Of a DNA stretch of 36,418 nt, positions 18,289 through 20,117 are shown one piece after another (position 1 is the first letter of the stretch; each line of letters begins with the position of its first letter). Source of the stretch: Candidatus Nomurabacteria bacterium. GTDB lineage: Bacteria; Patescibacteriota; Minisyncoccia; Phycocordibacterales; UBA9973. Made by a program: the position numbers and the translations under genes. Under the pieces are notes generated by a model. That model was not told where the DNA came from, did no database searches, and worked only from the letters and a program-made list of their open reading frames with translations. The stretch covers positions 1 to 36,418 of the forward strand of contig CALRET010000003.1 of NCBI GenBank assembly GCA_943356375.1, in the 5' to 3' direction.

Positions 18289-18317
18289 TTGACATTTGTG
18301 TGATAAATATGTTAAAT
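18289..18317 (+). promoter_or_regulatory. Promoter of the alpha-CTD protein gene (TTGACA-17-TTAAAT)
   Basis: A consensus -35 TTGACA (18289-18294) is followed after 17 bases by TTAAAT (18312-18317). Transcription would start near 18324, about 21 bases before ATG 18345. The two upstream in-frame starts (18300 and 18309) lie before the -10 box or overlap it and are excluded. Confidence 0.65.
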
Positions 18318-18344
18318 TATGTCCAGAAATTAGAACTTTTTATA

Positions 18345-19679
18345 ATGAGCAAAAAAGTGGACGGAAAGATGCTTTCCTATATACGGCAAGCGTTTCTGAT
18401 GAATATCCCTTTACCACTCATCGGTAAAGTCTGTGGGATCAACCATCTAACGATCGGACGGTATACTGAAGATATACGAGACCAAGTAAAAAAGATGACT
18501 AGAAATGGTCTAACAATGAATTTATTGAAACTGTATGTTTCCACAGCAATTGAACCAAAAGAATTTGGAGCATTACTCGGATATGCAAAAAAGACTGAGC
18601 GAGTACTCTATGAATACTTGAAATTAAATGTATGGAAACTCTATATTCAGGGAGTGTGTGATTCAGTGAACAGATATTCGAGATTGTCTTTCGAAGAAGG
18701 TATACCTGATTCGTATCAGAAACTTATATTACATCTGGTGAGAGAATACAGGGTATCATTGAATCAGGAAGAGGTATTCCATAAAATTCTTTTGAAAATG
18801 CATGGAAGTGGAATATACCCGAAAGCGATGATCAGAAATCCGACAAAATCTATACAACCGATTTTGGAAGACATCTTAGTTGATGAACGAAAAAAAGTTG
18901 GGTATGCAATATCTGTTGCGTTCTATAAACAACTTCGTTCTTTGATTATGGGGAGTGAACTGCCGAAACAACATAGAGCGGCATTGGTATTGAGTTTTGA
19001 TCTACCAGAAGAAGATGCACCAGTGGAGTACAAAGAGTTTTTCAGCGAGTATCAAACAAATATACCAAGAGACCGAGCATGCAGAGAAGCCATTCGCAGA
19101 CTGCGATCTCATATGATGTTATCAGATTTACCGGAAAACTGGAGCCAGGTCGTTGAGTCACATATCACTCATGAAACAAAAGTACGGTCATTGGATATTA
19201 AAGTATCTCAATTGCATAATGAATTGATTGAGGAGAAAAAATGGAAAGACGATATTGATAAATATCCTGTTTCCTATTTAGTAAAATTCATTCACGATCA
19301 CATGACTGAGGATACATCACTCCCTGTTCAAATTCAAGAAGCGCTACTTATGTATGTGCCTGAGTATAAGAAGAAAGTAGAGGCGTCAGGTGTTCCCACG
19401 GAATTTTCACCATCTATGCTGGCATTTCTGATACAACCTATTCAAGATTTGGACATGAGTGTGCGTACGTATAATTGCCTACGCGCTGCTGATATTTTTT
19501 ATGTGTGGCGAATTTTTAATTATAACAGAAATGATTTTTTAAAATTCAGAAATTTTGGCAAAAAAAGTCTCACTGAGCTTGATGATTTTGCGCATGGTAA
19601 AAATATGCACTTTGGTTTCAAGTATGATACCGCAACATTTAATTATCTGTTAAGTAAGACAAATAACGGCAAACCGTAA
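18345..19679 (+). CDS. Orphan RNA polymerase alpha-CTD protein with HTH and sigma-region-4-like segments
   Basis: 444 residues. The C-terminal domain (about 363-425) is a clear RNA polymerase alpha-CTD: DLDMSVRTYNCLRAADI, then FLKFRNFGKKSLTEL. It keeps the residues that in E. coli alpha bind the UP element (R265, N268, G296, K298, S299). The N-terminal 45 residues (PLIGKVCGINHLTIGRYTED) look like a helix-turn-helix. The segment 205-257 (LPKQHRAALVLSFDLPEE ... RACREAIRRLRSH) resembles sigma region 4. This could be a transcription factor that touches promoter DNA in several places, or a sigma-like or alpha-like accessory of RNA polymerase. Only the alpha-CTD is certain. It has its own consensus promoter and terminator and is divergent from ftsE. 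Confidence 0.75.
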   Translation: MSKKVDGKMLSYIRQAFLMNIPLPLIGKVCGINHLTIGRYTEDIRDQVKKMTRNGLTMNLLKLYVSTAIEPKEFGALLGYAKKTERVLYEYLKLNVWKLYIQGVCDSVNRYSRLSFEEGIPDSYQKLILHLVREYRVSLNQEEVFHKILLKMHGSGIYPKAMIRNPTKSIQPILEDILVDERKKVGYAISVAFYKQLRSLIMGSELPKQHRAALVLSFDLPEEDAPVEYKEFFSEYQTNIPRDRACREAIRRLRSHMMLSDLPENWSQVVESHITHETKVRSLDIKVSQLHNELIEEKKWKDDIDKYPVSYLVKFIHDHMTEDTSLPVQIQEALLMYVPEYKKKVEASGVPTEFSPSMLAFLIQPIQDLDMSVRTYNCLRAADIFYVWRIFNYNRNDFLKFRNFGKKSLTELDDFAHGKNMHFGFKYDTATFNYLLSKTNNGKP

Positions 19680-19683
19680 CAGT

Positions 19684-19705
19684 AAACCCCGCATGTGCGG
19701 GGTTT
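19684..19705 (+). terminator. Intrinsic terminator of the alpha-CTD gene
   Basis: AAACCCCGCA pairs with TGCGGGGTTT around TG and is followed by T residues. Confidence 0.9.
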
Positions 19706-19724: not shown

Positions 19725-20117
19725 TTACTTTTTCTTTGTTATCTTCCAAGCGAGACGATGTCCATACATCTCCCTTCCATGGGGATAATCAAATTCGGTA
19801 ATTATGTACCCCATATCCTCAAGTCTTTTTTTAACATTTTTAAAGCATTGAAGATCTCTTGATTTATAATACCCCAAATGTTTGGATATATTATCTTTAC
19901 TAATACCATTCATAAGAACAGTCTCTTTACTAAATCTTTTTGGAATGATCTCAAATTTTGTAACAATATCTTTACCTTTTTCAATGACAGCTTTAGTGTC
20001 TCGAAGATAATGAATAACACCAGCAAGTATTTGAATTTCATCATGTAGTGTTTGAAGATCACTGGCCTGCTTTGAGTTACATACCAGGGTTTGCCCTGGT
20101 ACAACAATATTTTTCAT
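19725..20117 (-). CDS. Hypothetical protein
   Basis: 130 residues, cytosolic, not recognised. The middle part (SKETVLMNGISKDNISKHLGY) and the C-terminal part (KNVKKRLEDMGYIITEFDYPHG) could be a winged-helix-like arrangement, but there is no clear motif. The ending KITKKK is basic. It has its own promoter (TTGCAT-17-TACTAT) and about 20 bases of leader, and follows prfB on the same strand. Confidence 0.6.
   Translation of the reverse strand: MKNIVVPGQTLVCNSKQASDLQTLHDEIQILAGVIHYLRDTKAVIEKGKDIVTKFEIIPKRFSKETVLMNGISKDNISKHLGYYKSRDLQCFKNVKKRLEDMGYIITEFDYPHGREMYGHRLAWKITKKK

Follow-up and report, generated by a model that had tools for sequence, protein, structure and literature searches.

In the RNA polymerase holoenzyme, the C-terminal domain of the alpha subunit (α-CTD) and region 4 of sigma (sigma-4) adjoin one another on UP element/-35 DNA, yet they are parts of different subunits. 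What, then, is to be made of a free bacterial protein in which an α-CTD follows a segment resembling sigma-4 in the same chain? The question is posed by P0001, a predicted protein of 444 amino acids encoded by a 36,418-nucleotide stretch of DNA (the window), which is contig C3 of a 657 kb Candidatus Nomurabacteria genome (90.8% complete). A preliminary description made from the letters of the window had called it an orphan α-CTD protein with a sigma-4-like segment, and this label holds as a statement of domain ancestry, by virtue of a Pfam sigma-4 match (PF04545) in one full-length relative (L014) and of a profile built from the whole family.

The gene and its surroundings

The P0001 coding sequence occupies positions 18345–19679 of the forward strand (ORF list and translation), and its start is correctly placed at the ATG at 18345, the position that aligns with the first residue of three full-length relatives. 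The gene stands alone between a divergent ftsE on one side and, on the other, a convergent 130 amino acid ORF and prfB, and its GC content resembles that of the surrounding DNA. The 130 amino acid ORF (19725–20117, reverse strand) faces the P0001 terminator and matched no known family in Pfam or NCBIfam.

Two expression signals had been claimed for this gene and they have fared differently. The strong terminator is borne out: an intrinsic terminator, AAACCCCGCATGTGCGGGGTTT, followed by a T-rich tract, is located at 19684–19705 on the forward strand (9-bp stem, -15.6 kcal/mol, z -3.2). The ‘consensus promoter’ is weak: the promoter-like site TTGACA-18-TAAATT (18289–18318, forward strand), with a TG before the -10 element, scores 10 of 12 in a consensus scan, but sites like it number 11 in the window against 9.9 ± 3.1 in shuffled sequence, no commoner than expected by chance in AT-rich DNA.

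An α-CTD with conserved DNA-contact residues

The α-CTD, a helix-hairpin-helix fold, occupies residues 357–428 of P0001 (19413–19628, forward strand). The Pfam family PF03118 (RNA_pol_A_CTD) matches residues 357–413 with 58.2 bits against a cut-off of 23.8 (E 6.6e-16), solved α-CTDs are the top matches in both PDB sequence searches and structure searches, and Foldseek superimposes the modelled domain on α-CTD crystal structures with an rmsd of 1.0–1.5 Å. The P0001 C-terminus is a genuine α-CTD.

In the Escherichia coli domain, R265 and N294 insert into the minor groove whilst K291 and K298 contact phosphates (PMC7822876), and D259/E261 contact R603 of sigma, with R265/N294 contacting DNA (PMC5511352). 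PDB entry 3n97 contains, according to its title, the α-CTD and sigma-4 together on UP/-35 DNA. The P0001 sequences VRTYNCLR and NFGKKS align with the DNA-contact residues, such that E. coli R265, N268, C269, K291, N294, G296, K298 and S299 correspond to R374, N377, C378, K400, N403, G405, K407 and S408, whilst the acidic pair D368/D370 corresponds to D259/E261. All 13 tabulated functional positions are equal or similar to those in E. coli, the sole change being E261D. The contact residues are therefore intact, as had been proposed, and at the residue level the capacity to bind UP-element-like DNA is well supported.

Relationship to host RpoA

Could P0001 simply be a second RpoA? Neither Pfam nor NCBIfam detects an α-NTD in the protein, which should therefore be unable to assemble into core polymerase, and the RpoA equivalog model TIGR02027 scores 48.9 bits against a cut-off of 227.8, with the CTD part only being matched. 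The host rpoA is a separate gene elsewhere in the genome, as are genes for a full-length sigma-70 and for ECF-type sigmas. The CTD of the host RpoA is also quite different: at E. coli positions 259, 261, 264, 265, 268, 269 and 291 it has S, A, T, R, N, A and E, and at 294, 296, 297, 298, 299 and 302 it has G, G, E, K, G and E. It thus differs at eight of the 13 tabulated positions, including 259, 261, 269, 291, 294 and 299, with C269, K291, N294 and S299 all lost along with the two acidic residues that contact sigma.

Nearly all of these changes are common to the other RpoA proteins read in the same GTDB family, although most of those retain D at 261, and it follows that the lineage as a whole may recognise UP elements in a non-canonical way. 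Nine RpoA sequences (L003, L007, L009, L010, L012, L013, L015, L029 and L082) carry C269A, N294G and S299G and have E or D in place of K291.

A tree built from 58 CTDs places the Patescibacteria RpoA CTDs in one supported group (95/90), with the CTDs of P0001 and its relative L040 paired (97/93) outside that group, near a Bacteroidota-type RpoA; the alignment has about 70 columns, a length at which the deeper branches are not resolved. Position in the tree and differing contact residues together rule out P0001 as a recent copy of host rpoA.

A segment descended from sigma region 4

The preliminary description placed a sigma-4-like stretch at about residues 205–257. In P0001 itself nothing of the kind is detectable: the Pfam model Sigma70_r4 (PF04545) gives no match up to E 10, and an HMM built from 11 region 4 sequences, one of which is a duplicate, taken from sigma factors of the host's phylum scores only 0.9 bits. 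The ancestry emerges from the relatives. At the corresponding place, L014 scores 40.6 bits and L021 20.3 bits with the local HMM, and with PF04545 L014 reaches 24.2 bits (cut-off 24.1) and L021 14.2 bits. When a profile of the four full-length proteins is compared with sigma-4 using hhalign, residues 189–261 are matched with a probability of 96.6% (E 6.2e-10). The pair formed by P0001 and L040 alone finds its best match at the same residues, albeit weakly (score 24.2, P 0.005). In a control with 150 column-shuffled sigma-4 profiles, shuffled profiles scored at most 20.0 against the pair and 20.4 against the family, versus 24.2 and 65.4 observed, though column shuffling is a lenient control as it destroys helix periodicity. 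Descent of P0001 residues 189–262 (18909–19130, forward strand) from sigma-4 is thus supported by profile comparison at the family level.

Ancestry is not the same as retained function, however. The sigma recognition helix TRERVRQI reads NIPRDRACRE in P0001, TESTVNGI in L021 and TVERVKQL in L014, being mostly kept in the last of these only. As judged by looking at the alignment, P0001 fits the first half of sigma-4 (a hydrophobic pattern at about 193–219) better than the DNA-reading half, and a single structure model of P0001 has helices in suitable places between residues 189 and 262 but with a pLDDT of about 35–50, too low to confirm the fold of sigma-4. Sigma-4 ancestry is thus supported but not -35 reading, and direct -35 binding, an ability that P0001 had been suggested to possess, is unlikely to be conserved. 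As no sigma region 2 is matched in Pfam, P0001 is ruled out as an intact sigma factor.

The N-terminus, middle region and linker

An HTH-like domain appears to be present at the N-terminus (residues 7–47; 18363–18485, forward strand). The four-member family profile matches a NarL HTH profile at profile positions 11–50 with a marginal E value of 0.045, the P0001 model has short helices at residues 7–18, 23–30, 34–40 and 42–47 with a pLDDT of about 60–70, and in this region a P and a TI are invariant in all four full-length members. The HTH assignment that had been proposed here is therefore plausible, though the profile match is marginal. Residues 53–185 (18501–18899, forward strand) form an all-helical middle region that is specific to the family and conserved in its four full-length members; they match no known family in Pfam or NCBIfam. 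A long predicted helix (residues 264–297; 19134–19235, forward strand), seen in the secondary structure of the low-confidence model, links the sigma-4-like and α-CTD parts and could possibly act as a dimerisation or tether segment; a simple hydrophobic-moment look gave no convincing coiled-coil signal there. The mean pLDDT of the single model is 47.5, with the CTD at about 80–87, the N-terminus at 60–70 and the remainder low.

Distribution of the full-length family

The three full-length relatives of P0001 are L014 (genome G060, 454 amino acids), L021 (G071, 422 amino acids) and L040 (G149, 457 amino acids). L040 aligns with P0001 from end to end with 27% identity (E 2e-36), whilst the E values for L021 and L014 are 4e-16 and 3e-15, respectively. 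The relatives that have the gene bear the labels Candidatus Nomurabacteria and Candidatus Paceibacterota, making the host a Patescibacteria of this type, and the full-length family is present in four of the 147 genomes of its GTDB family, each in a different genus. Such rarity indicates that the gene is not part of the core machinery.

Beyond this one GTDB family, scans covering the order (397 genomes) and the class (383 genomes) found no further full-length members; the remaining matches were mostly ordinary sigma factors recognised through region 4, the rest being unrelated proteins. Genome contigs searched with P0001 alone gave no match, and a genome-contig scan with an alignment query (A5) returned only two relatives that were already known; the phylum scan used a threshold of E 1e-10. 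Viral contigs and phage records yielded no close relative, so close similarity does not identify P0001 as a phage or plasmid gene. The four full-length copies lie at unrelated sites amongst ordinary chromosomal genes and have no neighbour in common; around them we recognised no integrase or phage genes, nor any regulon, operon partner or conserved neighbour that might indicate the targets of P0001.

Other sigma-4/α-CTD fusions

Whilst the full-length family was found in only four genera, the type of fusion recurs in other Patescibacteria and beyond. Within the same GTDB family, five proteins (L016, L020, L017, L022 and L025) combine a CTD with a sigma-4-like segment of varying strength. In other Patescibacteria, L062 (sigma-4 62.6 bits, CTD 59.7 bits) and L068 (54.8 and 75.2 bits) have both Pfam domains over cut-off, and L067 is a fusion by the local HMM; L062 is colinear with the four-member family profile through sigma-4 and the CTD, whilst for L068 the colinear stretch begins at the sigma-4 HTH and runs to the CTD. 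Outside the Patescibacteria genomes, a gut phage contig (L056/L057) has an HTH_17 domain, sigma-4 and CTD all over cut-off, and L059 and a Chryseobacterium protein (WP_124785686.1, L058), the latter from a mobilizable plasmid of Bacteroidota, are fusions by local HMM. No description of sigma-4/α-CTD fusion proteins was found in the literature searched. As read from sequence, then, the HTH/sigma-4/α-CTD architecture is real, recurrent and, in that literature, undescribed.

L022 (2768–4303, forward strand) is unusual in that its 512 amino acids comprise two α-CTDs, then a segment of the sigma-4 type and finally a tail rich in Cys. The CTDs of L022 are nested within host-type RpoA CTDs, implying that it had an independent origin and that fusions of this kind arose more than once.

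Detached modules are also seen. The P0001 host itself encodes a stand-alone protein of ~342 amino acids (L092; G000:C23:9419–9580, reverse strand) with Sigma70_r4 at its N-terminus (44.5 bits) plus a HARE-HTH domain (28.7 bits), which is thus another detached sigma-4 module, and a similar-looking protein occurs in another family of the class (L046). Related genomes encode short orphan α-CTD proteins of 114–163 amino acids (L018, L019, L024 and L028) and, in one case, a 307 amino acid protein with its α-CTD in mid-protein rather than at the terminus (L026:2061–2981, reverse strand). At least two α-CTD matches are present in 27 of the 147 genomes of the GTDB family, although a few of these are probably split rpoA genes.

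What might P0001 do?

P0001 has an α-CTD with its contact residues and a segment of family-level sigma-4 ancestry, has no α-NTD or sigma-2, and is encoded in a genome with separate rpoA and sigma genes. The interpretation that we favour, and to which we would give about an even chance, is that it is a stand-alone transcription regulator assembled from the promoter-recognition modules of the holoenzyme (an N-terminal HTH, a family-specific helical region, a sigma-4-descended domain, a helical linker and a DNA-binding-competent α-CTD) that acts in trans as an activator. The α-CTD, with the HTH, would bind the minor groove of AT-rich DNA on the upstream side of selected promoters, and specificity may be increased by the HTH. 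D368/D370 could then contact region 4 of a holoenzyme sigma already at the -35 element or, alternatively, P0001's own sigma-4-like domain could dock on the β flap. In either case, polymerase would be recruited to, or repositioned at, a small set of promoters; that this leads to activation and not to repression is assumed. It seems unlikely, though conceivable, that P0001 also serves as a detached, swappable promoter-reading module, giving chosen genes upstream-promoter recognition in a host whose own α-CTD no longer has most of its UP-element contacts (K291, N294, S299 and 259/261 being changed). P0001 cannot replace the weakened RpoA CTD in general, since relatives without P0001 share most of the RpoA changes.

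The main rivals to an activator or repositioning factor are that P0001 competes with sigma or that it is a regulator from a mobile element, and we consider both rather improbable. A competitor would place its sigma-4-like domain on the β-flap tip and displace the housekeeping sigma-4, either silencing -35 promoters or sending polymerase instead to sites marked by the HTH and α-CTD, as sigma-appropriating phage factors do. In favour of this, the first half of sigma-4 fits better than its DNA-reading half, related fusions are present on phage contigs, and there is a precedent in T4 gp33, a small factor that clamps the flap tip in the way of sigma-4, although gp33 is structurally unrelated to sigma-4 (PMC7892883). 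Retention of the DNA-contact residues in the α-CTD, however, suggests a role in DNA binding and not pure inhibition. Alternatively, P0001 may have come from a phage or plasmid gene of the HTH/sigma-4/α-CTD class, its chromosomal copy being a remnant or having been adopted by the host; on the element of origin, such a protein would control element genes. Consistent with this are the patchy spread of the family over four genera and four unrelated chromosomal sites, a CTD that falls outside the host RpoA clade and near a Bacteroidota-type RpoA, and similar fusions in gut phage contigs and on the mobilizable Chryseobacterium plasmid. The ordinary chromosomal surroundings of all four copies, where neither integrase nor phage genes were recognised, a GC content like that of the surrounding DNA and the lack of close relatives in viral contigs or phage records all point the other way.

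More doubtful still is a generic DNA-binding protein using its α-CTD and HTH solely to bind DNA, perhaps to organise the nucleoid or to process DNA, without touching polymerase. The degeneracy of its sigma-4 part would fit, and polymerase contact is for now inferred, but the repeated joining of two polymerase-specific domains in otherwise unrelated proteins would be difficult to account for if they did not act at promoters, and D368/D370 are kept at positions used in E. coli for contact with sigma, not DNA.

If such proteins are indeed active at promoters, they would constitute natural minimal promoter-recognition modules that can be tested in vitro, the two domains being joined in one free chain not only in P0001 but also in proteins, unrelated in other respects, from other Patescibacteria, phages and a plasmid. 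They would also bear on how transcription is regulated in reduced Patescibacteria genomes whose RpoA CTD has lost its canonical DNA contacts.

Comparison with known systems

P0001 has the same C-terminal domain as RpoA (PF03118), complete with all of the E. coli DNA-contact residues, but differs from RpoA in having no α-NTD and in being encoded separately from host rpoA. Its likeness to sigma-70 region 4 (PF04545) is one of descent, at residues 189–262 and by family profile; compared to members of the sigma-70 family, it has no sigma-2 or sigma-3, and its recognition helix is degenerate and below Pfam detection. With the T4 late-transcription coactivator gp33 there is analogy only: gp33 clamps the β-flap tip as sigma-4 does but is not structurally related to sigma-4 (PMC7892883), and it has no α-CTD. 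No full-length homology was found between the P0001 family and the gut phage and plasmid fusion proteins, which have a different N-terminal domain, an overt sigma-4 and a length of about 295–335 amino acids. In the gut phage contig proteins (MT835636, MT837876) and WP_124785686.1, nonetheless, the order is the same as in P0001, with sigma-4 followed by the α-CTD and, in the phage proteins, an HTH (HTH_17) ahead of both.
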